Shown here in pieces: positions 13,838 to 59,310 of a stretch of DNA of 64,000 nucleotides. The stretch comes from Lachnospiraceae bacterium (GTDB lineage: Bacteria; Bacillota; Clostridia; Lachnospirales; Lachnospiraceae). Position numbers and translations under genes: made by a program. The notes under the pieces were generated by a model that was not told the DNA's origin, ran no database searches, and saw only the letters and a list, made by a program, of their open reading frames with translations. The stretch covers positions 62,001 through 126,000 of the forward strand of contig CASJPF010000005.1 in assembly GCA_949383255.1 (NCBI GenBank), given 5' to 3'. How positions within the stretch are numbered: position 1 is the stretch's first letter; each line of letters starts with the position of its first letter.

Positions 13838-13886
13838 GAAAAAGCCTTTCGACTCCACAACATTACCGTTGTAGAGACGAAAGACT
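13838..13886 (-). terminator. Terminator hairpin of the leuA T-box
   Basis: Long arms (GTCTTTCG..CTACAAC with GTTGTGGAGTCGAAAGGC) around a GGTAAT loop are followed by TTTTTC. This is the off-state hairpin of the T-box; uncharged tRNA would favour the competing antiterminator. Confidence 0.9.
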
Positions 13887-14115
13887 CTCCTATAATCTCT
13901 CGCGGTACCACTCTACTTCACACTTTTATACAAAATAAAAGTATGCACTCATTCAGCACTATTATGCCTTCCCCTGATAACGGCAGGTCTTCCGTTGCAC
14001 CCTACTCTCAATGCTGTTTCAAGCACACAGCTCCAAGACGAGTTCACCATACTTCCCATACTGTCTCGCACCAATCGACAGCTCTCTGAAGTGTTTCATA
14101 TGATTACTATTTCTC
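13838..14115 (-). promoter_or_regulatory. T-box riboswitch, leucine specific, controlling leuA
   Basis: The minus strand has the T-box core AGAGTGGTACCGCG (13901-13914), a Stem I with the conserved GGTGCGAGACAG region near 14060-14080, and a downstream terminator. The specifier loop reads GAA-CTC-GTCTTGGAGC, so the specifier codon at 14040-14042 is CUC (Leu). Uncharged tRNA-Leu would pair with CUC and with the T-box bulge to allow read-through into leuA. The specifier matches the enzyme's pathway, which supports the assignment. Confidence 0.95.
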
Positions 14116-14131
14116 TTCATTGCTTTTTTCT

Positions 14132-44613: not shown

Positions 44614-45132
44614 TTACTGTAAAATATTCCGAACCTTCTCCTCGTACTCTTCTCTAGTGATAATGTCCATCTCAAACTGCATCTGAATCTTTTTTAACAT
44701 CTCAAAATTGTCATATCTTTTACGTGCCTTCGCCAGCTTCTCATCATATTCCAACTCAGAAATAATATCCAAATCTCTTGCCTTATCCAACTTGCGCTTT
44801 TCACTTTCAAACTGCTCTAGCGCCTTTTTTCTATCCTTCTCGATAGAATGCTGTCTAAACTGTTGTTCTTTCTGTTCCACCTGATCCACAATCTCAGCAA
44901 TTTTATCCAAATCAGGATTGATAACATCAAGAATATCTGTCACATCAAATGGTTCTGTCCGAAAGGTATCTGCAATATAAGCGACATATCGCTTGCCAAT
45001 CTCTGCATATTGACTTTCTAGTTTCTTCTCAATTGCCGCCTTCTGAATCTTGAGATTTGCAAGCTCTGTCTGCTCCCGCGTCGCATTTCCAATTTCTCTT
45101 ACTACTTTGGTCGTCCTATCAAAAAAATCCAT
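44614..45132 (-). CDS. Coiled-coil protein with SHOCT-like C-terminus, function unknown
   Basis: This 172-residue soluble protein has an N-terminal helix (FFDRTTKVVREIGNATREQTEL) and long charged coiled coils. Two C-terminal motifs resemble SHOCT-type helices (ARDLDIISELEYDEKLAKARKRY and MQFEMDIITREEYEEKVRNIL). The ATG at 45132 has GGAGGAA in front. It lies downstream of aat, separated by about 120 bp, and ends in a strong terminator. No known function. Confidence 0.75.
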   Translation of the reverse strand: MDFFDRTTKVVREIGNATREQTELANLKIQKAAIEKKLESQYAEIGKRYVAYIADTFRTEPFDVTDILDVINPDLDKIAEIVDQVEQKEQQFRQHSIEKDRKKALEQFESEKRKLDKARDLDIISELEYDEKLAKARKRYDNFEMLKKIQMQFEMDIITREEYEEKVRNILQ

Positions 45133-45253
45133 TCTTTTTCCTCCTGTTTTCCTCTTCCTCATTAATAAGTTACCTTTATTCTATCATTCCCAAAAACAGG
45201 TTGCCACCAAAGTATTTATAAAATATATGAAAAAAAGATAAAGCGAAAAGTTA

Positions 45254-45904
45254 TCACTGTAACCCTTTCTGCAATAATTCCACATACGTTTCCCACGAAA
45301 TATATCTGCCGCCCATACGCTCAAGATGTTCTGTGTGAAATTGGCAGTCAATAAACAGAAAATTTTGTTGCTCCAAAAGTTGTGCAAAGGCAATTAGCGC
45401 AGTTTTCGAGCCATTTTCCTTATCCGAAAACATACTCTCGCCAAAAAAACATTTTCCAATAGAAACACCATAAAAGCCACCTGCTAGCTCCTCATCCTCA
45501 AAAACTTCCACACTGACAGCATACCCTTGCTCATGCAGGCGGCAATATGCCTCCTCCATCTCATCAGAAATCCACGTTCCCTCATTAAATTCTCTCTTTA
45601 AGCGACATCGGTGCATTGTATCCGCAAAATTTTTATTTAACGCAATACGAAACGTATGTTTTTTCATATATTTTTTCATAGAGTGCGAGATATGAATTTC
45701 ACTGGGAAATATCACAAAACGTTTTTTGGGACACCACCATAAAATTTCTTCTCCTGGGTTATACCACGGAAAAATGCCATTTGTGTAGGCTAGCAAAAGT
45801 CGCTCGACACACAAATCTCCGCCGACTGCAAGCAGTCCATCCTCCCTTGCAAGCGTTGGGTGTGGAAATGATAATTGTTTTTTATCAATACGAAATACTG
45901 GCAT
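45254..45904 (-). CDS. aat: Leucyl/phenylalanyl-tRNA--protein transferase
   Basis: Aat adds Leu or Phe from tRNA to proteins with N-terminal Lys or Arg, creating an N-degron. The signature YTNGIFPWYNPGEEILWWCPKKRFVIFP is present, as is the later GGFYGVSIGKCFFGESMFS and the substrate-recognition segment FIDCQFHTEHLERMGG. It is 216 residues and lies 42 bp after clpA. With clpS and clpA it completes the N-degron pathway. Aat is uncommon in Firmicutes. Confidence 0.96.
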   Translation of the reverse strand: MPVFRIDKKQLSFPHPTLAREDGLLAVGGDLCVERLLLAYTNGIFPWYNPGEEILWWCPKKRFVIFPSEIHISHSMKKYMKKHTFRIALNKNFADTMHRCRLKREFNEGTWISDEMEEAYCRLHEQGYAVSVEVFEDEELAGGFYGVSIGKCFFGESMFSDKENGSKTALIAFAQLLEQQNFLFIDCQFHTEHLERMGGRYISWETYVELLQKGLQ

Positions 45905-45946
45905 ATGCCCTCCCCCTCTGTTGTGATTCTAAAAGTTACCTTTCTT

Positions 45947-48274
45947 TTATTCTGTATCTGCAAGCACTTTTCTTTTCATGTTTTTTCTAGGATTCTTTGT
46001 TTTTTCCTGTGAATATTCCAACGCAAAATGATTCTCTGTCACTGTCAGTTTACATTTACCACCTTTTTTTAGTTTTCCAAACAAGATTTCATCTACTAGG
46101 AGTGGTTTCACTTCACTTTGAATCACACGGTCAATCTCCCGCGCACCAAATTCTGTCGTAATGCCCTTCTTTTTCAAAAGAGTTTTTGCCTCTGTATCAA
46201 CAGAAAGCTCCACTTTTTTCAAGAGCAACATTTTTTGCAGCTCTCCAAGTTTTTTCTCTGTAATCTGCGCTGCCATCTTATTATCCATGCCATGAAAAAC
46301 AACAATTTTGTTCAGACGATTGCGAAACTCTGGTTGAAAAATGCGCTTTACTTCCTCTAAAATCACATCTGACTTAACATCCTGTCCTGTAAAACCAATA
46401 CCATGTTTTCCAACTCGACTTGCACCTGCGTTGGAAGTCATAATTACAATTACATTGCGAAAATCCGCCTTTCTGCCTTGATTGTCTGTGAGCGTCGCAT
46501 AATCCATTACCTGCAAAAGAATATTATAGATGTCAGGGTGCGCTTTTTCAATCTCATCCAACAACAGTACCGCATGTGGATGTTTGCGAATCTCCTCTGT
46601 CAAAAGTCCACCCTCTTCGTAGCCCACATATCCAGCCGGAGAACCAATCAGCTTTGCAACCGCATGTTTTTCCTCGTACTCACTCATATCAAAGCGAATC
46701 AAACGAACGCCAAGTTCCTCTGCCAAACTTCTTGCAATCTCTGTCTTACCAACACCTGTAGGTCCTACAAACAATAAACTCGCCAGCGGTTTTCCTTCCT
46801 CAAGAAGCCCTGCCCTTGAAAATTTAACAGCGTTGACCACCTGCGCAATCGCTTCATTCTGTCCAAACACACGACTTGCCAGCCGTGTTTCTAGCGTTGC
46901 AAGTGTCTCAATTTCATCTTGCTCTACAACTTGCTTTGGAATTTGACAAGTTTTTGACAAAATTTCATCAATTAAATCTGTGTCCACTGATTGCGTCTTC
47001 TGTTTTAGCGGATGCAGCCGACGGTAAGCACCCGCTTCGTCAATCAAATCAATCGCCTTGTCAGGCAAATAACGCTCATTCACATATTTCGCACTCATAT
47101 TCACCGCATATGCAATCACATCTGTCGCGTAAGTCACCCCATGAAACTGCTCATAACTCTCTTTCAATCCCTCCAAAATATGTGTGGCATCTTCTATATC
47201 CGGCTCTTTAATATCAATATTCTGAAAACGTCTTACCAGACTTTTACTTTTCTCAAAATGTTTCTTGTACTCTTCGTAAGTAGTTGCCCCAATAAAACGA
47301 ACTGTTCCCGCTGCCAGATATGGTTTTAGCATATTGGAAATGTCAAATGCACCTCCATTCACAGCGCCAGCACCCACAATATTATGAATCTCATCAATAT
47401 AGACAATTGGTTTTTCCTCGCGGCAAATGCTGTCCATCACCCGCTTAAATCGCTTCTCAAAATCACCGCGAAACTGTGTTCCTGCAATTAGGCTCCCAAG
47501 ATCAAGCGAAAAAATTTTGGCGTCTTTTAACGGTTCTGGAACCTGTTCTTCCTCAATCAAACGGGCAAGACCATACGTAATTGCAGTCTTGCCAACGCCT
47601 GGCTCCCCTATATGAAGCGGATTATTTTTGTCCTTGCGGCATAAAATCTGCATTGTGCGCTCTAGTTCTTCTTCCCTTCCAATCAGGGGATTCACCCCAT
47701 CAAGCACATCATTTAGACACACTGCAAACTGCTGCCATACTTTCTCTGATGGTCCATCTTCCTGTGCTTGATTTGTATCTTCCTCAATAAACTCTCGATT
47801 GTTTTTTTGTCTCCCCGCAGACAGTTCTTCATACAACATTGTCATCTGTTGCAACAGTTCCGCATGTTCAATTCCTTGAAGTTGCATATAGTAGACTGCA
47901 TAGCTCTCCTCCAACTCAAACATCGCATGGACAATATGCATTAATCCCACAACTTTCCGCCCGCTTCCCTGTGCTGACTGCCTTGCATAAGATAGCAAAC
48001 TTGCCATTCCTGCTGAAAACTCTGGGTTTGATTCAGAGTCTTGCGCAAAGGAATCCGCCGAATCACCATCCAACAAATATTGATTAAAATATCCCTCCAA
48101 TTGGTCTGAAAGCTCTGCAACATCACCACCACAATCCTCAAATGCCTCCGCAAATATTTGATTGCCACAAAGCACAAACAAGAGCAACTCTGGCGTCACA
48201 AGCTCATAATGCCGTTCTCTTGCCATAACAACTACCAAATTGATGATTTCTGCCACCTCTCTTGATACCTGCAT
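45947..48274 (-). CDS. clpA: ATP-dependent protease unfoldase ClpA
   Basis: ClpA is a two-ring AAA+ unfoldase that feeds proteins to ClpP. The N-domain has about 150 residues. The first Walker A is GEPGVGKT (223-230) with D-x-D/E type Walker B IVYIDEIHNIVGAG, and the second is GPTGVGKT. The ClpP docking loop IGF is present in KHGIGFTGQ. The middle domain is short, as in ClpA and unlike ClpC or ClpB. It lies 17 bp after clpS. ClpP is not in this window. Confidence 0.95.
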   Translation of the reverse strand: MQVSREVAEIINLVVVMARERHYELVTPELLLFVLCGNQIFAEAFEDCGGDVAELSDQLEGYFNQYLLDGDSADSFAQDSESNPEFSAGMASLLSYARQSAQGSGRKVVGLMHIVHAMFELEESYAVYYMQLQGIEHAELLQQMTMLYEELSAGRQKNNREFIEEDTNQAQEDGPSEKVWQQFAVCLNDVLDGVNPLIGREEELERTMQILCRKDKNNPLHIGEPGVGKTAITYGLARLIEEEQVPEPLKDAKIFSLDLGSLIAGTQFRGDFEKRFKRVMDSICREEKPIVYIDEIHNIVGAGAVNGGAFDISNMLKPYLAAGTVRFIGATTYEEYKKHFEKSKSLVRRFQNIDIKEPDIEDATHILEGLKESYEQFHGVTYATDVIAYAVNMSAKYVNERYLPDKAIDLIDEAGAYRRLHPLKQKTQSVDTDLIDEILSKTCQIPKQVVEQDEIETLATLETRLASRVFGQNEAIAQVVNAVKFSRAGLLEEGKPLASLLFVGPTGVGKTEIARSLAEELGVRLIRFDMSEYEEKHAVAKLIGSPAGYVGYEEGGLLTEEIRKHPHAVLLLDEIEKAHPDIYNILLQVMDYATLTDNQGRKADFRNVIVIMTSNAGASRVGKHGIGFTGQDVKSDVILEEVKRIFQPEFRNRLNKIVVFHGMDNKMAAQITEKKLGELQKMLLLKKVELSVDTEAKTLLKKKGITTEFGAREIDRVIQSEVKPLLVDEILFGKLKKGGKCKLTVTENHFALEYSQEKTKNPRKNMKRKVLADTE

Positions 48275-48291
48275 CTTTCTTCCTCCATATA

Positions 48292-48585
48292 TTACTCAAT
48301 TGTCATACGAAATGGAAATCCTTCTTCCCGCGCCCTTGCCGACGCAGATTGTACCTTTGAGACAGCAATATCATAGGGATATGTCCCCACAACAGCTTTC
48401 CCCGTCTCATGCACCAACAACATCAGTCGTTCGGCTTCTATTTCATTCTTATGAAAAAACTCTCGCAGAATATCCACCACAAAATCCATTGTGGTAAAAT
48501 CATCATTGTGCATAATCACTTTATATTGTTTTGGCTCTCGTATTTTGATACGTGTATTTTGCCTTGTTTCTCCCTGTATTGCCAT
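48292..48585 (-). CDS. clpS: ClpS adaptor protein
   Basis: ClpS recognises N-degrons and hands them to ClpA. The 97-residue protein shows the conserved VIMHNDDFTTMDFVVDILREFF with the N-terminal residue pocket, and VHETGKAVVG. It starts 25 bp after the VWA gene and 17 bp before clpA, so it links the MoxR/VWA genes to the clpA-aat genes in one transcript. Confidence 0.95.
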   Translation of the reverse strand: MAIQGETRQNTRIKIREPKQYKVIMHNDDFTTMDFVVDILREFFHKNEIEAERLMLLVHETGKAVVGTYPYDIAVSKVQSASARAREEGFPFRMTIE

Positions 48586-48610
48586 TTTGTATTCCCTCTT
48601 TAATCATTTA

Positions 48611-49792
48611 TCACTTTGCTTTTTTCCCAAACTGAGACAAATCCTGTCCTTTTAGCGCCTTCTCAAGCAATGCTGGCAAAAGCTCAGGGGTACAGGCAAA
48701 GCATGGAACTCCAAGCCCTGCAAGCTTCTGTGCCATCTGCGCATCATAGTAAGGTCTTCCGCCATCGGCAATTGCAAGCAGGCTGACAACTGTCACGCCG
48801 GATTCCTTCATATCGCTAATGCGTCTAAGCATTCCTGCCCGATTTCCAAACTCATCTAAATCAGAAATTAAGAAAAATAATGTCTTTGCCGGATTTTCAA
48901 TAAACTGCTCACAGTAAGCGATTGATTTGTTAATATCCGTGCCGCCTCCAAGCTGAAATCCAAACAACAAATCAACCGGATCATCACTTTTTTCTGTCAA
49001 GTCCACAATATTTGTATCAAATGCAACAATTCGTGTCTTAATACTTGCCATGCTTGCCAAAATACAACTGATAATTGAGGAATAAATAACAGATTCCCCC
49101 ATTGATCCACTCTGGTCAATATCTAGTATAATGGTCCATTTATTTGCTGCCGTTGTACTTGTCCGGTCAAAGAAATAAAAATGTTCAGGCACAATTGTCT
49201 TTAAATCAGGATTATAATGTTTTAAATTGCGATTGATTGTCATTTTAAAATCCATTGCCGACGCAGATGGAATAGGTGAGTGCTTTCTCTTATTGACCGC
49301 AGCAGTGATAGCACGCCGAATATCCTGCTCAAGCAACTTATTTATTTCCTCTACAATCTTTTTAATAAACTCTCGAACACTCTCCTTCGAGCGCTTTGGA
49401 ATCTGATCTTTTAACATTAAAATTGTGGAGGCAAGCCCAATGTCTGGCTCCATATTTTCCAATAGCTCTGGCTCAAATAACAACTGTTTTAGACCGCAGC
49501 GCGTCACCGCATCATTTTGGATAACAGTCACTAATTCCTTGTCAAACAGTGTCCGCACATCGCCAAGCCAGCGGCTAATCTGTGGATTTGATGGTCCCTT
49601 TCCTGCACCTCTGCCTGAACCGCCTGACCCACCAAATCCTCCAAGCTCTGTCCGATTATAGATAGAAGCAAGCGCCTGATCCATCAAATCCTGCTCTTGC
49701 GTCAGCGTCAAGTCTGTCATTGTTGACAGACGCTTATCACTCTCCTGTCCCAAAATTAAACGCCAACGACTAATTTGTTCTTTTACTTCCAT
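48611..49792 (-). CDS. VWA domain protein of the MoxR/DUF5682 system
   Basis: The 393-residue protein has an N-terminal helical region, a glycine-rich linker (GGFGGSGGSGRGAGKG) and a von Willebrand A domain with the metal-ion site DIDQSGS (Asp226, Ser228, Ser230) and a later QLGGGTDINK. VWA proteins of this type bind MoxR ATPases and a client. It follows the DUF5682 gene by 23 bp and precedes clpS by 25 bp. No membrane segment or signal peptide is seen, so it acts in the cytoplasm. Confidence 0.9.
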   Translation of the reverse strand: MEVKEQISRWRLILGQESDKRLSTMTDLTLTQEQDLMDQALASIYNRTELGGFGGSGGSGRGAGKGPSNPQISRWLGDVRTLFDKELVTVIQNDAVTRCGLKQLLFEPELLENMEPDIGLASTILMLKDQIPKRSKESVREFIKKIVEEINKLLEQDIRRAITAAVNKRKHSPIPSASAMDFKMTINRNLKHYNPDLKTIVPEHFYFFDRTSTTAANKWTIILDIDQSGSMGESVIYSSIISCILASMASIKTRIVAFDTNIVDLTEKSDDPVDLLFGFQLGGGTDINKSIAYCEQFIENPAKTLFFLISDLDEFGNRAGMLRRISDMKESGVTVVSLLAIADGGRPYYDAQMAQKLAGLGVPCFACTPELLPALLEKALKGQDLSQFGKKAK

Positions 49793-49815
49793 ATTGAACC
49801 TCCATATTAAAAGGA

Positions 49816-52065
49816 TTAAAGGTCAAAATCAAAATCATCCAGTCCTTCAATCATCTGCTGTGCATTCTCGTCAAGCACAGCATTTACAATCTCGCTGACC
49901 TCCTGACCATTCAACCCTAATATCTCTCCTAGGTTCTCTGCAATCTGGTCTTTTTCCGCCGCAGAAAAGTCTGCAAAAGCACGCCGCAAAAAGACAAGTG
50001 CTCGCTTAAACTCCTCATCATCTAGTGTGACAAGATAATCGTTTAAACTCTCCCATAGAGACAACCTTGCAATAAGCGCATATCTATTTTTCATGGCAAG
50101 CCCTTCAAACCACCCTGCCCCCAAGTCCGCAGGGATTCCTTTTGAGAGGCGTCTTGACACCTCTGTGCGCAACTGCTGTGTACTCATATTGCCGCGCTCT
50201 AGCAAAATTGCCGCTGCAAATCCCGACAATTTGGTATTCAAATCGTCGCGTTCTGAAATACTATCCAGCACTTTAATCCACTCGTCATGATCCAGAAAAT
50301 CATGTGCTAACTCCACACTGTTTAACTGTTCCATCGCAGCGAGAATTGACTTGCTTGCTGTATCATCGCACACGCAGGCAGACTCCAATATTAGACATGC
50401 CCTATAAAATAGCTGCTTTAATATTGGCTCTAACGGTTTGGCGTCAATGCGCCGGATATTGCCATACTGCACCACCACGGAAAGTCTCTGCGCTGTCTTT
50501 GCCAAATCCTCCACCGACGCTGCATCCACCGCCATTCTTTGTAGCGCTGCGGTCGCATAGCCAACTGCTTTTTCCATACCACAACTGCAAGCATCTTCTA
50601 TAACAAGCGCAATCTCTCCCATATTTGCGGCATTTTCCACACGTTCCTTCATGGCAAAAGACGCCGCCCCATCGATGGTATCACCCTTTAACGCAGATTC
50701 CACCAGCTCTATCTCCGCCTCTGGTGTCCACCGCACAACCCAGTGTTCTGACCACGTTGCATTGTCCTGACTAACAGACTGCTGCTGAGCAAAACTTACA
50801 TGAATCACTCTAAGTCGATGCAGGAAAAAAGAGCGATGCAAATCAATAAACGCTGATTTTTCTGAGCTGACACGTCTATTTTCCCGCAAATCCAGCATTA
50901 AATCTTGCGCAGCAATATCACGGTATTTTTCCAGTTTTAAATCTTTTAGCTGTCTGTAAAAGTCTTCTTGAATACTGGTGCGACTCACACCGTCAGGAAG
51001 CGCCCCAATCGCTGTTCCAATCTCTGTGTCAGCCGTCGCATGAATAATGCTTGACACGCTCCCCTCACCAATACAGGTCTGCGCTGCATCGCGCAAATCT
51101 CTAAGGGAGGCAATCGTTCCACCCCTAAGCTGTGCCAAAGACATTGCCAGACACACCGCCTCAATCACTGAGGCAGACGAAATGGGATTTCCTTTTTCGC
51201 GCTGATATTTTGCAAGCTTTATCAGATAGCTGTAAACCGCATACATTGGTTCACCTTTCTTTAAACCCTCCCACAAAAGCGCATAGTATGCAGGCGCTTT
51301 GTTTCCAGCACCATAGCCGGATCTTGTGGAAAGACGGTAATACGAATATGGCATTAATGTATGATTTGCCCCCACCTTGGGCATCTTTGATAAGTCTTCA
51401 TCAGCTTCTTGCCAATTTTTTAGCCCTTCTACATGATAGGAACCTGTCACCACAACAATGTTTTCCGGGTCAATGCCAGAATCTACAGATTTTTTAATCT
51501 GCTGGCGCATATATGCCTCACGAAGTACGGTCTCCGCCCAATCATTATCTTTTCCTTCCGTAAGGCTTCTAATGTTGGCACCAAAACTGTTTGCTCCCAA
51601 ATGATAGGCTTCAATGCTGCCAGACCGCTCCATAACACGCTCCCAAAATGTATCATGGCTATCCTCGCCGCTCTGCTGGTCAAGCTGTTCATAGACATTG
51701 ATTCTACCCTCTTCCCCTTCTGCATCTTGCATACCACACTCTGGTATTGCCAGAAAAGTTTCCGATGGCAAATCAATAAAATGACATGGCACGTGATTTT
51801 TGTGGCACCACTGTATTGCTTGATATTCTGGCGAATATTCTGCAAACGGATACAATATGGTTTTCACGGGTGCTTCCTTTGTGTATGCAAGTACCGCAAT
51901 TGGCGGTTTTGTCTCCTTGCGTACCATATCAGACAGCATATCCTCAAAATCGCTTGGCCCTTCAACCAGCACTAGCTTTGGTTTCTTCTCGTCAAGAAAC
52001 CCGCGCAGATAATACGCACCGGCAGGCGATAAATGCCGTATTCCGAAAAAATTTGGATTTTTCAT
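49816..52065 (-). CDS. DUF5682-family protein, predicted EreA/ChaN/TIKI-like hydrolase
   Basis: This 749-residue protein matches the DUF5682 family. The N-terminal domain has FFGIRHLSPAG (His11), VLVEGPSDF (Glu35), FIDLP near residue 100 and VVTGSYHVEGL (His211). Placed against the EreA/ChaN/TraB fold these would be metal or active-site residues, so a peptidase or esterase-like activity is plausible but unproved. The rest is a helical region. It sits 30 bp after the MoxR gene and 23 bp before the VWA gene. Confidence 0.8.
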   Translation of the reverse strand: MKNPNFFGIRHLSPAGAYYLRGFLDEKKPKLVLVEGPSDFEDMLSDMVRKETKPPIAVLAYTKEAPVKTILYPFAEYSPEYQAIQWCHKNHVPCHFIDLPSETFLAIPECGMQDAEGEEGRINVYEQLDQQSGEDSHDTFWERVMERSGSIEAYHLGANSFGANIRSLTEGKDNDWAETVLREAYMRQQIKKSVDSGIDPENIVVVTGSYHVEGLKNWQEADEDLSKMPKVGANHTLMPYSYYRLSTRSGYGAGNKAPAYYALLWEGLKKGEPMYAVYSYLIKLAKYQREKGNPISSASVIEAVCLAMSLAQLRGGTIASLRDLRDAAQTCIGEGSVSSIIHATADTEIGTAIGALPDGVSRTSIQEDFYRQLKDLKLEKYRDIAAQDLMLDLRENRRVSSEKSAFIDLHRSFFLHRLRVIHVSFAQQQSVSQDNATWSEHWVVRWTPEAEIELVESALKGDTIDGAASFAMKERVENAANMGEIALVIEDACSCGMEKAVGYATAALQRMAVDAASVEDLAKTAQRLSVVVQYGNIRRIDAKPLEPILKQLFYRACLILESACVCDDTASKSILAAMEQLNSVELAHDFLDHDEWIKVLDSISERDDLNTKLSGFAAAILLERGNMSTQQLRTEVSRRLSKGIPADLGAGWFEGLAMKNRYALIARLSLWESLNDYLVTLDDEEFKRALVFLRRAFADFSAAEKDQIAENLGEILGLNGQEVSEIVNAVLDENAQQMIEGLDDFDFDL

Positions 52066-52095
52066 CTATCTCTTCCTTACCTTCCTAAACTGGTA

Positions 52096-53181
52096 CTAAA
52101 CTGTCAGTTCCTTGCACGCCCGATACAGCCCTGACCACTCCGAACCGCGTTTTTTCATAACATTTTCCAAATATTCTTTCCACGCTACCTTGTCTTTGTC
52201 CTCGTCTTTAATCACCGCACCTTGCAGCGCTGCTGCCAAATCCTCATTTGTTATTGTCCCATTTCCAAAACTTCCTGCCAGCGCCATGCTGTTGCACAGC
52301 AAAGAAATTGCTTCCGCAGTAGAGAGAACGCCCGATGTACCTTTCACCTTCTGCGCGCGGTCAAGTGTTTCTCCGCAGCGAAGTTCCCGGAATATTGTAC
52401 ATACTTTCTCTATAACATTGTCTGTGGGCTGGGTTGCATTCAAATCAAGATTTTGCGACAGTTGTGTCACTCTTGTCCTGACAATTTCCATCTCAGAACT
52501 TAAATTTGCTGGCGCTGGAAGCACAACAATATTAAAACGGCGCTTTAGCGCAGCAGACATTTCATTCACGCCTTTATCCCTTGTGTTTGCTGTTGCAATT
52601 ACAGAAAAACCTTTTTTTGCTGCCACTTCAATTGCAAGTTCTGGAACAGAGATTCTCTTTTCTGATAAAATCGAAATTAATGCATCTTGCACCTCAGAGG
52701 CACAACGGGAAATTTCCTCAACACGCGCAATCGTTCCCGTTTCCATTGCATTAAAAACAGGACTCTTAAGCATTGCCTCGTGCGATGGTCCCTGCGCAAT
52801 CAACATTGCATAATTCCAAGAATATTTAATCTGCTCCTCTGTGGTTCCTGCTGTTCCCTGAATTACTTTTGTAGAATCACCGTTAATGGCAGCCGTCAAA
52901 TGCTCAGAAAGCCAGCTCTTTGCTGTACCTGGTTCACCAATTAACAACAGCGCCCTGTCTGTGACAAGTGTGGAAATTGCAATCTCCACTAGGCGCTCAT
53001 GCCCTATGTACTTTGGTGTAATCTCAGTTTTTCCAACCTTTCCGCCACAGATATAAGTCTTTACTGACTGCGGAGACATCCGCCAACCTGTCGGAACTGG
53101 ATTTTTCTCCGCTGCAATCAATGCGTCAATTTCCTTCTGAAATAACTGTTCTGCTGGCAGTCTCAATAATTCTTCACTCAT
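52096..53181 (-). CDS. MoxR-type AAA ATPase
   Basis: The 361-residue ATPase has Walker A GEPGTAKS (82-89), a Walker B region ending VEEISRC and an arginine-rich sensor region (NEMSAALKRRFNIVVLP). MoxR proteins act with VWA partners to remodel or assemble proteins. It lies 34 bp after the helical-repeat gene and 30 bp before the DUF5682 gene. Confidence 0.9.
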   Translation of the reverse strand: MSEELLRLPAEQLFQKEIDALIAAEKNPVPTGWRMSPQSVKTYICGGKVGKTEITPKYIGHERLVEIAISTLVTDRALLLIGEPGTAKSWLSEHLTAAINGDSTKVIQGTAGTTEEQIKYSWNYAMLIAQGPSHEAMLKSPVFNAMETGTIARVEEISRCASEVQDALISILSEKRISVPELAIEVAAKKGFSVIATANTRDKGVNEMSAALKRRFNIVVLPAPANLSSEMEIVRTRVTQLSQNLDLNATQPTDNVIEKVCTIFRELRCGETLDRAQKVKGTSGVLSTAEAISLLCNSMALAGSFGNGTITNEDLAAALQGAVIKDEDKDKVAWKEYLENVMKKRGSEWSGLYRACKELTV

Positions 53182-53215
53182 TTTATATACTTTCCTTTCT
53201 CAAATAAATTTCTTT

Positions 53216-55171
53216 TTATAAATTTTTCTCAATCCACGCTTCCAGACTAGAAAAATCAATTTTTCTTGGACGAAGTTTCCCTGTCTTTATCCGTTCTTTA
53301 AGGTTCTGTGCCTCCGCGCGTCTCGCCTCCAAGTCCCCTGGCATTTCTTCCAAATAATGCTGCAATTCCCACTCTTCAATTCGTTTTTCTTTACTCTTAC
53401 AATACTGTACAGCAAGATCCTCACAAACAGTCCAGCCACACGCCTTCATACTTGACAGATACATATTATCACCAGTCGTCAGCGCCTTCTTATAAAAATA
53501 TTCTCCCATCATACTACACATACACGCATCATTCAATGGAACCCAATTCGTCAACATCTCATCAACCAACTTTGAAGAATGCTCCTGAAACCACTCTATA
53601 ATCTCTTTTGCATGGGATAACTTAATTGGTCTTGCAACGCTTCTATGTCCTAGCGAATGAGTGTCCATATAATATCCAAAAAATTCATAACTGTTTTCTG
53701 TCGCGTTCCATTTTATATATGCCGCTACCTTCGTAACCACATTCATACGTTCCTTGGAAAGCTTTGGCACAATAAGGACTGTGTCTTTCACTTGTTGTTC
53801 AAGCCATTCGATGCAATTCTCATCCTTAGAAAACTGCACTGTAACCGCTGCTGGTAAAAATTTTAGATTTGTCTTTTTGGCGTCTCCATCTTGATACAGC
53901 GCAAACGCAAGTGACTGCAATTCTGGGTCTGGGTTCACAAGCAGAGAATGATGCAAAACTTTGCTCAATGTTGTCTCAATATCCCACAAACTCGATTTGT
54001 TCCAACATTGATAAGATCTTAATACCCCATACTGTAATACAATATTTTCATATACATTCTGTGATTCCTTACATGTTTTTTTCAGAAACGTATCTATCTT
54101 TTCTTTATTTACAAGAAGCTTTTTATAACATTCACAGATTCGAGAACCTCCCTTGCCAAAAAAAGCCCTCACCATAAGCTGTAGTCTATCGGAAAAATAT
54201 TGTTTTTCTTCATCAGTAGCGTTATCTATTGTTTTTAGCTCTTCCAAAATCGCATCACAAATATCTGCTACCAACTTTGCGGACCAATCCGTCATTGAAT
54301 CTTTAAGATACATTAGAACCGTATCCGTCCTTTTCTCTGCCAATTTCCGAAAAAATTTATGGACTCGTTCCTTTTGAATCCCCACAAGTAACTCAAAAAC
54401 TTTATCTTTATTTTTTCCTTTTTCTGTCTTTGCTAATGCAAGCAACAACGACAGATTTTCAGGCGCATGACGAAGTGCATCAATGAGTTCTGTGCGCACA
54501 TCTTTTTGCGCTTCCTTTAACATTTCAATATAAAAATCGTTTGCCTCTGCACCGGCAAGCGCACTGATTAGCCTTACACGGCGCACCATTTCCTTTTTCC
54601 CTTTTGGATCAAAATCTTTATATAAAAGCGGTAAAATTGTCTTATCATTATCTTCTCTTAGCCACTCTTCCACTTTGTCCGCTATATAGGTAGTCCCCAA
54701 TGCCCCAACCAATGTATATCTAACACGATAGTCCCGAAAAAATTCTGGGTGACGCTCATACAGTTCACACACATATCTATAGTGTCCACCATCTGATGTT
54801 GTCAGCGCATCAAGCAACTTTTTTAACACAGAATATGGTGCACTCACCACAATGCTGTCTGTGCTTGTTTCCAGTTCTGTGATCTCAAACGATTCAACTT
54901 CTCCTTGTATGTCTACTGCTCCCAGCGTACAAATCACAGCATCAGCCAATGTGCTAGCATCCAAAAGCGCACCTTGCAAATTAGAACAGTCCGGCGAAAA
55001 TAGCTGTGCTGTCAACTGCCCTAATTTTTCAAAGATAGGTGAAATCGCTTCCAGTGGTTGAAACGCTTCATAAGCGCGTTTCAACCGAAAATCTTCCGAC
55101 AACAGACTTGTTCCGGCGATACCCGCCACGCGCATACGCGCCCGCAACTCATAAATTGGTGTTATATCCAT
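53216..55171 (-). CDS. Helical-repeat protein, paralogue 1
   Basis: This 651-residue protein is mostly alpha-helical and HEAT-like. It has no catalytic motif I can see. It begins ITPIYELRARMRVAGIAGTS and shares this start, SLLSEDFRLKRAYEAF, LLYKDFDPKGKKEMVRRV and AGAEANDFYIEML with the next gene upstream, so they are tandem duplicates. The start at 55171 has AGAGGTG. It is 34 bp before the MoxR gene. In actinobacterial clusters of this kind the corresponding gene is DUF5691; I believe these are its counterparts. Confidence 0.75.
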   Translation of the reverse strand: MDITPIYELRARMRVAGIAGTSLLSEDFRLKRAYEAFQPLEAISPIFEKLGQLTAQLFSPDCSNLQGALLDASTLADAVICTLGAVDIQGEVESFEITELETSTDSIVVSAPYSVLKKLLDALTTSDGGHYRYVCELYERHPEFFRDYRVRYTLVGALGTTYIADKVEEWLREDNDKTILPLLYKDFDPKGKKEMVRRVRLISALAGAEANDFYIEMLKEAQKDVRTELIDALRHAPENLSLLLALAKTEKGKNKDKVFELLVGIQKERVHKFFRKLAEKRTDTVLMYLKDSMTDWSAKLVADICDAILEELKTIDNATDEEKQYFSDRLQLMVRAFFGKGGSRICECYKKLLVNKEKIDTFLKKTCKESQNVYENIVLQYGVLRSYQCWNKSSLWDIETTLSKVLHHSLLVNPDPELQSLAFALYQDGDAKKTNLKFLPAAVTVQFSKDENCIEWLEQQVKDTVLIVPKLSKERMNVVTKVAAYIKWNATENSYEFFGYYMDTHSLGHRSVARPIKLSHAKEIIEWFQEHSSKLVDEMLTNWVPLNDACMCSMMGEYFYKKALTTGDNMYLSSMKACGWTVCEDLAVQYCKSKEKRIEEWELQHYLEEMPGDLEARRAEAQNLKERIKTGKLRPRKIDFSSLEAWIEKNL

Positions 55172-55196
55172 TATATCACCTCTTTTGCTGGTTTTA

Positions 55197-57188
55197 TCAG
55201 CCTCCATACCAGTTGTTCATATATCTTTCAAAGTCTTGCTCCTTAAAATTCTTCATTTTAAGTTCGCCGCTTTTTACCTTATCGCAGATTGCTTTTGCCT
55301 CTTCCATCACAGCGTCTTTATCCTTTGACAAATCTATTAGCCAATAGTACAAAGACCATGACGAAATATTTGGATTATTCTGTGCATGTTTGATTCCCAG
55401 TCCCTTACAAACTGTCCAACCACACTCATTCATAAAATAAATACAATTGTTATTGTCCCGAGAAACCAGTGCCCTATTATAAAAATACTCTCCCATCTCC
55501 TGACATTGCTCTTTATCATTTAATACTACCCAATTTCCTAAAATGTCATCCGCTGCTTTTGTTTCATACTGTCTCAGCCAATCCATTACTTCCTTTGCGT
55601 GAGACAGTTCAACAGGCACTTCCACCATTTTGAATGGATTGTAATACTCACTCTCATAACTGTCTGCATAAGTATCTATATAATTGCCAACAAATTCATA
55701 GCCTCCCTGTTTTTGATCCCATTTAATATAGGCTGCCGCTTCAAGAACTGCCACCATATGCTCCTTGGACTGCTTTGGTACCAACGCCGCAAGCCACTCT
55801 GCACACGCTTCCTCCCGAATCAGTTTTGCTGTGATAGCGGCTGGAAGAAATTTTATATTTGCTGGAACAAATTTTACATTTGCTGTATATAATTCCAATG
55901 CAAGTTCCTGTAATGCAACATCTGGATTGACAATTAAAGAATGATGCAAGATCTTTCCCAATGCAATTTCAATTCTTCTAACATTTGCAGCAAATGAAAT
56001 CGTAGAAATTTCATCTATTGTCTCAAGCACTCCATATCGCAATATATCCGTATTATTGTTATTATTTTTTTTGTCAACTTTCCATGTTTCTTTCAACAGA
56101 GAATTAATATTATCTTTTCGTGCAAGCAGGCCGCGATAACATTCACAGATTGCAGTTCCTCCCTTTCCAAACAATGCGCGAATTACTTTTTGCAGTCTCT
56201 CAGATACTTCCAATTTCTTTTCCTCTGACATAATATTCAGCGAATCAATTTGTTCAAGCATCCCATTACAATAATTCGCAACCAATTGTGCTGACCACTC
56301 CGTTGTTGTATTTTTCAAATTTTGCAACGCATTTTCCGGCTTTTTCTTCATCATTTCTTGATAGAAGTCACATGCTCTAGTGTCGTCCATCTCCGCGAGT
56401 AACTCCAAAACTTTCTCTTTGTTTTTCCCCTTCTCTTTCTTTACCAAATCCAGAAGCAGTGGGACATTTTCTAAATTATGGCGCAGTGCATTGAGCAGTG
56501 CCAGACGAACATCTTTCTGTGCATTGGCAAGCATCTCAAGATAAAAATCATTTGCTTCTGCCCCCGCAATGGCATCAATTACTGTCACGCGACGCACCAT
56601 GTCCTTCTTGCCTTTTGGGTCAAAGTCCTTGTATAAAAGCGGCAGTAATGTCTTATCTTGGTCTTCTTTCATCCATTGCTTAATATCATTTGCAAGCTCT
56701 GCATAAGGAGCGCCCAACGCCTGCACCAAAGCATATCTCACGCGATAATCCCGAAACAATTCTGGGCGGTTTTCGCGCACATCACACACATAAGCATAAT
56801 GACCACTTCCCGATGTTGTCAGCGCTTCCAAAAGCTCTTTTAATGTAGAATATGGCGCATTGACAATAATACTGCCTGTATTTCTCTCTGTATCAACAAT
56901 ATCAAGCGCTGCAACTTCTCCTTTTATATCTACAGTTCCCAATGTGCAAATCACAGCGTCTGCAAGCGTTATTGTATCCAACAGCGCCCCTTGCAAATTC
57001 GGGCAATCCGGTGCTAACAACTGCGTGGTCAACTGTCCCAATTTTGCAAAGACAGGCGAAGCCGCCTCAAGTGGTTTAAATGCCTCATAGGCACGTTTTA
57101 ATCGAAAATCCTCCGAAAGCAAACTTGTTCCTGCAATCCCTGCTGCGCGCAAGCGTGCCCGCAGCTCATAAATCGGTGTTGTATCCAT
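55197..57188 (-). CDS. Helical-repeat protein, paralogue 2
   Basis: This 663-residue protein is the tandem paralogue of the gene 25 bp downstream, with conserved N-terminal and central segments and divergent C-terminal halves. It has an extra Asn-rich stretch (NNNNT) near residue 380. It is probably a scaffold that binds clients or the VWA partner. There is no membrane segment. A 140-bp gap separates it from the SWIM gene, long for the operon but with no terminator visible. Confidence 0.75.
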   Translation of the reverse strand: MDTTPIYELRARLRAAGIAGTSLLSEDFRLKRAYEAFKPLEAASPVFAKLGQLTTQLLAPDCPNLQGALLDTITLADAVICTLGTVDIKGEVAALDIVDTERNTGSIIVNAPYSTLKELLEALTTSGSGHYAYVCDVRENRPELFRDYRVRYALVQALGAPYAELANDIKQWMKEDQDKTLLPLLYKDFDPKGKKDMVRRVTVIDAIAGAEANDFYLEMLANAQKDVRLALLNALRHNLENVPLLLDLVKKEKGKNKEKVLELLAEMDDTRACDFYQEMMKKKPENALQNLKNTTTEWSAQLVANYCNGMLEQIDSLNIMSEEKKLEVSERLQKVIRALFGKGGTAICECYRGLLARKDNINSLLKETWKVDKKNNNNNTDILRYGVLETIDEISTISFAANVRRIEIALGKILHHSLIVNPDVALQELALELYTANVKFVPANIKFLPAAITAKLIREEACAEWLAALVPKQSKEHMVAVLEAAAYIKWDQKQGGYEFVGNYIDTYADSYESEYYNPFKMVEVPVELSHAKEVMDWLRQYETKAADDILGNWVVLNDKEQCQEMGEYFYNRALVSRDNNNCIYFMNECGWTVCKGLGIKHAQNNPNISSWSLYYWLIDLSKDKDAVMEEAKAICDKVKSGELKMKNFKEQDFERYMNNWYGG

Positions 57189-57327
57189 ATCTATCCCTCC
57201 TATTTTCTTTACAATTCCTTAGACAACCGCTTCCACAATTGTCTTTCCGCAAACCTGAATTTTTTTACGCCAATCTGCGCCTCATTTTAAGACACCTTTG
57301 TCAAAATCTTCTTGACTTTTTTACCAA

Positions 57328-58806
57328 TTAATATAACAATCGCACCACTGTGTCATGTGTGATAATACTGAGCGGCTGCACCATAAGTCTGCGGTTTTCC
57401 TGATTGTAATAAAATGCGCCCAAAAGTACCTGATTTTCAAGCAAAGAAGCATTTGGCAACATGGAAAGTCGCACAACCGTCTCCTCCATATTTGGCATAT
57501 CTCCTAAAAGAATGGTGTCGTTATTATTGTCTGCCAACACAAAATCCTCGCCAATTTTTCCAATCTTATGAAAGGAAATCAGCTTGATCATCCAAGGCTG
57601 TGTCATTGCATTTTTAAGGAAATTTTTGACAGCCTTTGCCTCCTGTTTGACAGAAGTAACAGCATGTTCAAAGATTGCCTCGTAATCTGCCTGTTCATAT
57701 TCGCGTATCTGAGCATTTTCCCAGCGAACCCTGACATTCCCATCACCGGGATAAAACACTGCGCTTGGTACTTTTGCCACACCAAAAATGCTGTCTTCCT
57801 GTTTAACGTATTTTAATGATTTTATTGGACGATAATTGTAATTCATATAAATTTCGCCAGTGTCCAAATCTGCCCAGCAACCAGTGTCAACATACTCTTT
57901 TCGCGCCTCATCGTAAATCACCCAGAAAGAGAGCTGCATTAGACTTGCATCCTTTTTATTTTTTCCTAGCTCCTCCAACTCTGACAGTTTCCAGATGCCG
58001 CCCAATTCCTCATACAGAACCGTATCCTCCAGCGTCACATCATCCTTTTCAATTTTTTCATTTAGATACTGACGCGACTTTTTAATTAAGCTCCAAAGCT
58101 TTTCCAACACGCTAATTGCCGCATCGTAATGAGATTCCTTTTGGTCTTTCTGAAATTCTGTAATCTCAATTAATAACTGGCTGCACAGTCTCTGCGGTCC
58201 TGGAAGATAATAATCGCCCATCTGCTTTGCAAGTTCTTGATAGGTCTTAATAGAAGCGCCTCCTATTGTTCCTAGCCCCGCCGACATCAGTTCCATAACA
58301 ACTTTCTCAACCAAATCCAGCCCTTCAAGCTGCGTCTTTATTTTTTTCACCCTTGCATTTTTCGCAGTTCTTGCAGCAGTTGCCTTTTTCTTTTCCGCCT
58401 TCTTCTTTTCTTCCTCGGTCATTTCGCTCTCTGGCTTTGCTGCCTCATTTGCCTTATTTTCCTTTGCCTGCTTCTTCTCGCGCTTTTTCTGAATATCCTC
58501 TGGGACTTCACAAATGCTAAATTCCTTTTTTGCAAGCATCTCATACATTAGCGCTAAACTGTGCTTGCAAGGAAACTGCCTGCTTGGACAAGAACAGCGA
58601 TAAACTGGATTGTTCTCATCTATGTAATCTGCCGATGTAATGTAATTGCTCTTGCCACTGCCAGTACACTCTCCCATATAAAATGTATCGTCTTGTGACC
58701 GCTCAAGCTTAACAAATCCGCCTTTCTGTGAAATTTTTTTGCCATTTGAGGCCGCTGCTGCATTTGGTGCCAGCGCTAAAATTTGCTGTTCGTTTATCTC
58801 TCTCAT
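57328..58806 (-). CDS. SWIM zinc finger protein
   Basis: The 492-residue protein has a SWIM finger near the N-terminus, CSC-x6-C-KH (Cys71, Cys73, Cys80, His82), preceded by the usual beta-rich region. A charged Lys/Glu/Ala region and a helical/beta C-terminal part follow. SWIM fingers bind DNA, RNA or proteins. It is the first gene of the MoxR/VWA operon, 69 bp after the thioesterase stop codon. Confidence 0.88.
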   Translation of the reverse strand: MREINEQQILALAPNAAAASNGKKISQKGGFVKLERSQDDTFYMGECTGSGKSNYITSADYIDENNPVYRCSCPSRQFPCKHSLALMYEMLAKKEFSICEVPEDIQKKREKKQAKENKANEAAKPESEMTEEEKKKAEKKKATAARTAKNARVKKIKTQLEGLDLVEKVVMELMSAGLGTIGGASIKTYQELAKQMGDYYLPGPQRLCSQLLIEITEFQKDQKESHYDAAISVLEKLWSLIKKSRQYLNEKIEKDDVTLEDTVLYEELGGIWKLSELEELGKNKKDASLMQLSFWVIYDEARKEYVDTGCWADLDTGEIYMNYNYRPIKSLKYVKQEDSIFGVAKVPSAVFYPGDGNVRVRWENAQIREYEQADYEAIFEHAVTSVKQEAKAVKNFLKNAMTQPWMIKLISFHKIGKIGEDFVLADNNNDTILLGDMPNMEETVVRLSMLPNASLLENQVLLGAFYYNQENRRLMVQPLSIITHDTVVRLLY

Positions 58807-58875: not shown

Positions 58876-59310
58876 TTACAACATCTGTCGAAATCGCTCA
58901 TCAATCTCAGGATAATCGTGTTTTAGTGAAATAACATGCCCTGCCTTATCCAGAAAACAATGTGTGCTTGTCCCTTTTGTGCGCAGCTCCCCAGTTCTAT
59001 TGTCTGTTATCTTATATGCTAAGTCTAGCCGCACACCATTATATTTTGTGACATTTACTTGAATCTGCACAATATCGTCAAAATGCACCATGCTTTTATA
59101 TTCACAAGATACCGAGACAACTGGACTGATAATGCCATTTTTTTCCATATTGCTGTACGATATTCCAAATTGACTCATGGCGTCCATTCGGGCCTCCTCC
59201 ATCCATCGAATATAATTGGAGTGATGAATAATCCCCATCTGATCTGTCTCATAATATTTTGCATGGTGTATATATGGCGCAATGTGATTTTTTATACTCA
59301 TCTTCTGCAT
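58876..59310 (-). CDS. Acyl-CoA thioesterase (4HBT hot-dog fold)
   Basis: The 144-residue enzyme resembles YbgC/FadM-type thioesterases. The active-site region is YYETDQMGIIHHSNYIRWMEEAR, and the catalytic Asp is the one in ETDQMG. AGGGG precedes ATG at 59310. It is likely first in the transcript with the SWIM operon, although the relation may be only by position. A promoter with an extended -10 is at 59362-59370. Confidence 0.88.
   Translation of the reverse strand: MQKMSIKNHIAPYIHHAKYYETDQMGIIHHSNYIRWMEEARMDAMSQFGISYSNMEKNGIISPVVSVSCEYKSMVHFDDIVQIQVNVTKYNGVRLDLAYKITDNRTGELRTKGTSTHCFLDKAGHVISLKHDYPEIDERFRQML

Follow-up and report, generated by a model that had tools for sequence, protein, structure and literature searches.

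Why should a gene cassette centred on a MoxR-type ATPase and a VWA protein stand in one row with clpS, clpA and aat? The question is raised by nine genes in a 64,000-nucleotide stretch of DNA from a Lachnospiraceae bacterium of the gut (assembly GCA_949383255.1, contig CASJPF010000005.1, positions 62,001 to 126,000), hereafter called the window. The first six, SWIM-HR1-HR2-MoxR-DUF5682-VWA, in which HR1 and HR2 are helical-repeat proteins, represent, in the Clostridia, a cassette that is widespread but uncharacterised and is related to E. coli yehL-yehM-yehP-yehQ; they are not a new system. Their linkage to the clp genes is real yet restricted to one clade of the genus, and is not a general property of the module. 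What is new is the assignment of DUF5682, the diversification of the adaptors and a junction peculiar to the clade; the nine-gene unit itself is a known cassette in a form specific to this clade. We tentatively propose, at a probability of about 0.42, that the MoxR ATPase and the VWA protein could form a motor served by HEAT-repeat adaptors and a TIKI-like protease, to which ClpS-ClpA-Aat would have been added as a disposal arm.

The nine-gene row

The genes of the row, and the regions within them that are discussed below, are the following (positions in the window; aa, amino acids).

57328..58806, minus strand: SWIM zinc-finger protein, 492 aa, gene 1 of the core cassette (PF04434, 23.6 bits against a cut-off of 19.6)
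55197..57188, minus strand: HR1, HEAT-repeat protein, 663 aa, probable client-recognition adaptor (HEAT_2 family matches)
55989..56498, minus strand: region of HR1 most divergent among sibling genomes (95.7% nucleotide identity; 22 of the 28 HR1 differences fall in approximately this region)
53216..55207, minus strand: HR2, HEAT-type protein (51% identity to HR1)
53881..54381, minus strand: hypervariable block of HR2, 501 bp (69 differences from the sibling genome G156, 13.8%)
52096..53181, minus strand: MoxR-type AAA+ ATPase, YehL-like, 361 aa (AAA_5, PF07728, 129.8 bits)
49816..52065, minus strand: DUF5682 protein, YehM-like, 749 aa (PF18934, 497 bits)
51256..52065, minus strand: residues 1-270 of the DUF5682 protein, TraB/TIKI-like domain with H11, E35, R182 and H211 (hhalign 92-93%)
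48611..49792, minus strand: CoxE-type VWA protein, YehP-like, 393 aa (PF05762, VWA_CoxE, 146 bits; DxSGS...T...D metal-site residues)
48292..48585, minus strand: ClpS N-degron adaptor, 97 aa (PF02617, 110 bits; top PDB matches are ClpS)
45947..48274, minus strand: ClpA unfoldase, 775 aa (TIGR02639, 982.8 bits, slightly under the cut-off of 993.15)
45254..45904, minus strand: Aat, leucyl/phenylalanyl-tRNA-protein transferase, 216 aa (TIGR00667, 192 bits)

An earlier note, made from the letters of the window alone, had described nine genes running in one direction, and the listing of open reading frames (ORFs) places all nine on the minus strand from 58806 to 45254, at the coordinates which that note gave. 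Its domain names (SWIM, MoxR, DUF5682, VWA, ClpS, ClpA and Aat) were borne out by Pfam and NCBIfam, and so was its spacing of 17-42 bp with about 140 bp after the SWIM gene (139 bp between SWIM and HR1), except at HR1/HR2: these overlap by 11 bp when the first ATG of HR2 is used, and lie 25 bp apart with the inner Met that aligns to HR1. The remaining gaps measure 34 bp (HR2-MoxR), 30 bp (MoxR-DUF5682), 23 bp (DUF5682-VWA), 25 bp (VWA-ClpS), 17 bp (ClpS-ClpA) and 42 bp (ClpA-Aat). A terminator between the module and the clp genes would, according to the same note, have made the linkage a matter of chance. A consensus scan found no terminator-like site on the minus strand in any gap of the row; the nearest one upstream lies at 59690-59664, past yebC. 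An Rfam scan at the gathering threshold gave no match inside the nine-gene locus. The Clp N-degron genes are probably co-regulated with the cassette in one clade.

The sequence features expected of each component are present. All five aligned VWA rows carry DQSGSM or DESGSM, and the DxSGS/T/D metal-site residues are found; all five aligned MoxR rows carry the Walker A sequence G(E/L)PGTAK(S/T) and R-x-EE. At the Walker B position, normally Asp-Glu, the same five YehL-type rows have Glu-Glu. In ClpS the stretches HNDDFTTMDF and LVHETGK align with VNDDYTPMEF and AVHYQGK of a ClpS in the PDB, and include the NDD and the His that we take to be pocket residues. ClpA has two AAA+ modules and carries IGF at the position of IGL in its top PDB match, ClpA 6w1z; this IG(L/F) loop presumably binds ClpP, for which two genes lie elsewhere in the genome (frames of 206 and 200 aa, 290 and 260 bits).

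A widespread cassette and its junction with the clp genes

In the window a YehL-like MoxR, a DUF5682 protein and a CoxE-type VWA protein neighbour a SWIM gene, with two HR genes between SWIM and MoxR. The E. coli order yehI-yehK-yehL-yehM-yehP-yehQ reads DUF4132, small protein, MoxR, DUF5682, VWA and SWIM, so yehLMPQ holds the same four families as the window cassette; identities are 38% (MoxR/YehL), 26% (DUF5682/YehM) and 34% (VWA/YehP). The SWIM gene is last in E. coli, whereas it is first in the window, and the two SWIM proteins could not be aligned by BLAST. Upstream, E. coli has yehI where the window has the HEAT proteins, and no similarity was found between YehI and HR. There is no clp gene within the 22 kb viewed in E. 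coli, in contrast to the adjoining clpS-clpA-aat of the window. The four-gene cassette is near-core in E. coli, with a match in 5311 of 5426 genomes and at least 80% of its length covered in 5155.

Rhizobium and Deinococcus have the gene order of the window, SWIM-DUF5691-MoxR-DUF5682-VWA (Deinococcus with one small extra ORF), and MoxR proteins 53-55% identical to that of the window (Rhizobium 53%). Slot 2, however, holds DUF5691 and not a detectably similar HEAT protein, and no clp genes occur within the stretches viewed. The order SWIM-HEAT-MoxR-DUF5682-VWA is also found in Fusobacterium, and it is complete in 53 of 80 Clostridia loci, these being the best 80 of 404 confirmed relatives and overlapping with the genus set described below. 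The 27 that remain are mostly truncated or rearranged; two place the HR gene ahead of SWIM, an order seen in the loci L054 (11158-14790) and L089. A Hymenobacter protein annotated as DUF5691 (L186:3951-6980) shows, by eye, a CxCx6CxH motif of SWIM type close to the N-terminus; this suggests that the SWIM and helical proteins work together.

A full-text search of the papers available returned none with the term DUF5682, and among the titles retrieved for yeh gene names and combinations of the families none concerns what the cassette does. yehLMPQ occurs in most E. coli genomes searched. The likely enzyme class of DUF5682 and the likely adaptor role of the HR proteins make the cassette testable, with K-12 as a host. 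The source of bacterial N-degrons is a long-standing open question, and the row with clpS-clpA-aat offers a concrete hypothesis on their origin.

How far does this row extend among relatives? We compared samples of 38 genomes from the genus (including that of the window), 150 from the family and 295 from the order. Within the genus, DUF5682 was found in 22 of 38 genomes, ClpS in 26 and Aat in 19. The DUF5682 type of the window scores 474 bits or more, the other type (type 2) 341 or less. DUF5682 and ClpS lie at most 3.4 kb apart on one contig in 16 of the 18 genus genomes with the window's type; the exceptions are G181, with ClpS on another contig, and G180, in which ClpS was not found. In maps of linked loci, VWA adjoins ClpS or is separated from it by one gene, which is a DUF6020 gene in three linked genomes. 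The family sample had DUF5682 in 17 genomes, ClpS in 12 and both in 5, the order sample in 19, 54 and 5, respectively, and in either sample the two shared a contig only in the genome of the window. The 8 genomes outside the genus with both genes (4 from the family, 4 from the order) have them on separate contigs; these assemblies are fragmented and contig breaks may mask neighbours, although several of the contigs are long. Co-occurrence of DUF5682 and ClpS exceeds chance in the family (Fisher p 0.005) and the genus (p 0.0014), though not in the order (p 0.36), kinship ignored. ClpS is present in 13 of the best 80 Clostridia loci, and 50 of the 67 without it extend more than 1 kb beyond VWA.

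The trees point to a single origin of the junction. In the ClpA tree (33 rows) the 13 linked rows of sufficient length group together in a single clade (99/99; recovered in 98% of bootstrap trees), and in the DUF5682 tree (42 rows) the 16 linked rows require at least two changes, with two to three across bootstraps. When the two trees are read together, the simplest reading is that the linkage was probably gained once and lost once, the loss lying in a subclade of three members (G181, L083 and L088) nested among the linked rows. Aat was found in 15 of the 16 linked genomes, but in the genus only 4 of the 10 genomes with an unlinked ClpS have it (Fisher p 0.005, kinship ignored); G160, the one linked genome in which it was not found, is 66% complete, and its contig breaks off within clpA. 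All three genes of the known ClpS-ClpA-Aat pathway also stand in a row in unlinked relatives (L073, L156 and L157), whereas a clpS-clpA-aat row co-directional with this MoxR/VWA cassette was seen only in this clade.

Chance linkage was rejected on the strength of 16 close DUF5682-ClpS pairs in the genus and the single ClpA clade, and linkage as a general module property on that of the 8 outside genomes, fragmented assemblies in which the two genes are split across contigs. The earlier note's proposal that the module belongs with clpS-clpA-aat therefore survives as a property of the genus only. The separation which, by its own account, would have spoken for chance is found outside the genus, in one subclade and in E. 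coli, but not in 16 of 18 genus genomes.

A different MoxR (AAA_3) directly follows clpS-clpA(-aat) in G041 (L169:3656-5748), where DUF58 comes next, and in G022 (L167:10543-11094). These are 2 of 63 ClpS-bearing genomes outside the genus, among the matches listed, and perhaps represent an independent MoxR link to clp genes.

Several relatives carry additional genes around the core. The genome of the window has a second, E. coli-like DUF5682 module (L034 = G000:C26, 8375-17335), in which a gene for an ADP-ribosylglycohydrolase (PF03747) separates DUF5682 from VWA. In other relatives the same interval holds DUF6560, an HsdR_N-like domain, RtcB, a methyltransferase or an alpha/beta hydrolase (L098:12240-13283, L093:12238-13341, L114:4327-5532, L116:12322-14758, L119:12796-13584 and L124:6972-8909), and in some relatives it looks like a variable cargo slot. 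Related genes occur close to the HR genes, at varying positions, in five linked genomes (L055:9730-11325, L065:14712-16304, L067:1385-2956, L060:14671-15999 and L057:12320-13522); the L055 copy matches AAA_35 and PD-(D/E)XK.

The DUF5682 N-terminal domain and the HEAT proteins

The TraB/TIKI motif consists of two GxxH sequences with a conserved Glu between them. The DUF5682 protein of the window has G8-x-x-H11, E35 and G208-x-x-H211, in a register that was checked on PF01963 proteins. A profile of its residues 1-270 matched TraB_PrgY_gumN (PF01963) in hhalign at 92-93% (92.3%) with a score of 54-55 (53.9); the PF01963 profile comprised six of the seven proteins found, the seventh having given no ORF, and was the one family of the superfamily compared. 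At a loose setting the match covers residues 2-220, with the first GxxH, the Glu, an Arg and the second GxxH in register. Against the same profile, 20 column shuffles scored 10-22 at probabilities of at most 1.4%, the reversed profile 13.8, and MoxR, VWA and HR 15.6, 21.7 and 17.7, respectively. Residues R10, H11, E35, E80, D98, E146, R182, G208 and H211 do not vary among 14 aligned sequences, which comprise those of the window, E. coli, Rhizobium and Fusobacterium together with further family and type-2 rows. A PDB sequence search with the DUF5682 profile gave two matches at E = 1, which we take as chance.

The N-terminal domain of DUF5682 thus looks like a match to the TraB/TIKI putative protease family, and it probably hydrolyses peptide bonds. 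According to a published account (PMC6254334), a His-Glu core is common to the active TIKI proteins, of which some are endopeptidases, while the catalytic motif is missing from some members. The earlier note had taken DUF5682 for a possible cutting or modifying enzyme, a suggestion to which the profile match lends support.

By their profile matches, the helical proteins are members of a HEAT-repeat family. HEAT_2 is matched by 35 of 49 aligned HR family members at E <= 0.01; HR1 of the window matches it under the curated cut-off and HR2 gives no match at E <= 0.001. The top PDB matches of the HR profile are designed HEAT-like alphaRep proteins. HR copy number varies from 1 to 3 in the genus, and no additional copies were found elsewhere in the genome.

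The HEAT proteins evolve several times faster than their neighbour genes. Over 16.5 kb the window and its sibling G156 are 99.08% identical, with 152 mismatches; 69 of these fall in the HR2 block (13.8%) and 28 in HR1, and divergence elsewhere is 0.39%. The region of HR1 that matches the HR2 block holds 22 of its 28 mismatches. Amino-acid changes number 36 in HR2 (35 of them in residues 276-443), 10 in HR1 and 0-2 in each of the other seven genes. Across six genome pairs the ratio of non-synonymous to synonymous substitution (dN/dS) is 0.13-0.31 for HR as against at most 0.06 for MoxR, DUF5682, VWA and SWIM and at most 0.08 for ClpS, ClpA and Aat, where compared and defined; the flanking genes in two pairs and a thioesterase-like gene in a third reach up to 0.09. 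HR changes are more widely spread in other genome pairs. For 22 HR sequences from the genus, column entropy averaged over stretches of 20 residues stays at 0.4-1.0 as far as residue 280, apart from 1.8 at 101-120, and is 0.9-2.2 in the part that follows. The proposal of the earlier note that the helical-repeat proteins select clients gains from this fast evolution, from the change in copy number and from the pattern of a conserved N-terminal part with a variable remainder.

What generates the variation of the HR2 block? Differences involving A make up 52 of the 69, and 53 are transitions, in a block composed of 34% A and 13% C. A weak blastn search of the block against the window for a template of a diversity-generating retroelement (DGR) gave only HR1 and a 14-base match, no reverse transcriptase search being made; such an element is one possible source of HR variation.

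A tentative mechanism and its rivals

On the gene order, the homologies, the single linked ClpA clade and the accelerated HR evolution, all shown by computation, we base the following model. The MoxR ring ATPase and the VWA protein would form the motor, on which HR1 and HR2 would dock through their more conserved N-terminal 280 residues while their fast-changing remainder binds particular client proteins; SWIM may help to hold the assembly as a scaffold. The motor would feed or expose clients to DUF5682, whose TraB/TIKI-like N-terminal domain probably hydrolyses peptide bonds in them. Cutting would yield new N-terminal residues acting as N-degrons, which we infer to be the simplest functional link between the two arms. 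ClpS could take these products directly, or after Aat has added Leu or Phe to Lys or Arg starts, and pass them to ClpA with the ClpP encoded elsewhere. MoxR/VWA pairs act as chaperones in which a VWA finger is proposed to enter the MoxR pore, as a published account describes (PMC9976466). MoxR itself may be a Clp partner, a weaker link between the arms drawn by analogy: another source lists M. smegmatis MoxR as an interactor of the ClpC1 N-terminal domain and in the ClpC1/P2 knock-down data set (PMC10433963). Of the mechanism drawn by the earlier note, this model retains possible cutting by DUF5682, client selection by the HR proteins and linkage within the genus, and drops linkage as a general property. 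A bolder version is programmable proteolysis, in which exchangeable, fast-diversifying HEAT receptors would pick targets, the TIKI-type protease would expose N-degrons, the clade's own ClpS-ClpA-Aat would take the fragments, and target choice would evolve by swaps of HEAT segments; we consider it unlikely.

Several results weigh against the proposed proteolytic relay. At its default setting hhalign reports only 35 columns near the first motif, type-2 rows replace G8 of the first GxxH (H11, E35, G208 and H211 being kept), and non-proteases with the TIKI fold exist, such as PMT, which is without the 2His/2Glu motif (PMC6254334). Profile comparison with four DUF5691 sequences found no similarity to HR. 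The dN/dS of HR is under 1, and third codon positions account for 34 of the 69 differences in the block; therefore recombination or old allelic divergence would explain the block without recourse to positive selection. Recombination of divergent alleles fits best, although no donor of the block was found among the loci compared. The two arms are also separable: in G181 the module is nested in the linked lineage and ClpA falls in an unlinked clade, so the module probably reached this genome without its clp neighbours. Outside the linked clade the cassette occurs without adjoining clp genes, and the Clp arm is therefore not essential to it.

Alternatively, the link may be purely regulatory. The cassette and clpS-clpA-aat would share a stress condition and a promoter, neither acting on the products of the other, and both concern protein quality. 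The single linked clade, the existence, within the genus, of loci in which either part stands apart from the other and the lack of a terminator-like site between them agree with this explanation, which we regard as possible. Persistence of the linkage while inserted genes and HR copy number changed, and retention of Aat in the linked genomes, hint against it without proving the contrary. A role in the assembly or activation of a metal enzyme, comparable to that of NorQD or RavA-ViaA and with DUF5682 as a cofactor handler rather than a protease, is quite unlikely. ChaN, a distant relative of DUF5682, binds haem. Two papers, respectively, place ChaN among TIKI superfamily structures (PMC6254334) and have NorQ/NorD inserting iron (PMC9976466). 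As described in the latter, NorQ/NorD, CbbQ/CbbO and RavA/ViaA pair a MoxR ring with a VWA partner as the window cassette does; they serve particular clients, whereas HEAT, SWIM and TraB-like proteins are regular parts of the cassette. The lengths of flanking ORFs, which were not annotated as a set, vary from locus to locus with no constant client gene evident, fast-evolving HEAT proteins are ill-suited to a single conserved client, and H11, E35 and H211 align with the TraB motif positions.

Even less probable, in our view, is a role in conflict or phage defence resembling that of the VMAP ternary systems; the HR proteins would then sense the proteins of an invader, and the TIKI-like domain would be the effector. 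In the VMAP paper (PMC7159879), a MoxR, a vWA protein and a peptidase form the published ternary architecture, and DGR-diversified or hypervariable sensors are reported for such systems there and in PMC10907252. The window cassette is similar in its MoxR ATPase, vWA protein, putative peptidase and, as in some of those systems, variable sensor-like proteins. The MoxR of the window also matches PF20030 (bpMoxR, of MoxR-vWA-beta-propeller ternary systems) with 29 bits at a cut-off of 27, far below its AAA_5 score; DUF5682 (phrog_30700, E 4.5e-35) and VWA (phrog_31592, E 1.3e-65) each match a PHROG without an assigned function, so that phage proteins are taken to include relatives of both; and the mixed cargo genes between DUF5682 and VWA in some relatives are partly nuclease-like. 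However, no PADLOC model matches the six module proteins, ClpA alone giving matches (AAA-type models, best PDC-M37B), no VMAP-named Pfam family appeared among the ten proteins scanned at E <= 0.001, and the text of the VMAP paper contains none of the terms DUF5682, SWIM, YehL, YehM and TraB. No relatives of DUF5682 were confirmed in viral contigs, and the one relative in a phage record lies on an unverified scaffold. Phage defence, an option named by the earlier note, therefore lacks direct support, the E. coli cassette being near-core (5155/5426), and a phage-defence island is set low, the PHROG matches notwithstanding.

The phage-record relative is MT835988 (L184), an unverified 14-kb 'Bacteriophage sp.' faecal scaffold with a DUF5682 gene 60.7% identical to that of the window; it is possibly bacterial DNA and was not taken as evidence. 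Among 72,556 plasmid records, 36 also carry a relative of DUF5682, including records from Rhizobium, Streptomyces and Hymenobacter; 27 of the 36 are typed as non-mobilizable.

The row may run past the nine genes, as co-directional ORFs lie on both sides.

58876-59310, co-directional: ORF resembling a thioesterase (by eye, no family search), 69 bp upstream of the row
44614..45162, minus strand: 182-aa protein without a Pfam family, 91 bp downstream of the row

Maps of 15 other linked loci show an ORF of the latter type 3' of aat in 8 cases, and several of the remaining loci end early. Elsewhere in the window, the Rfam scan identified a T-box leader at 13870-14129 on the minus strand (135.7 bits).

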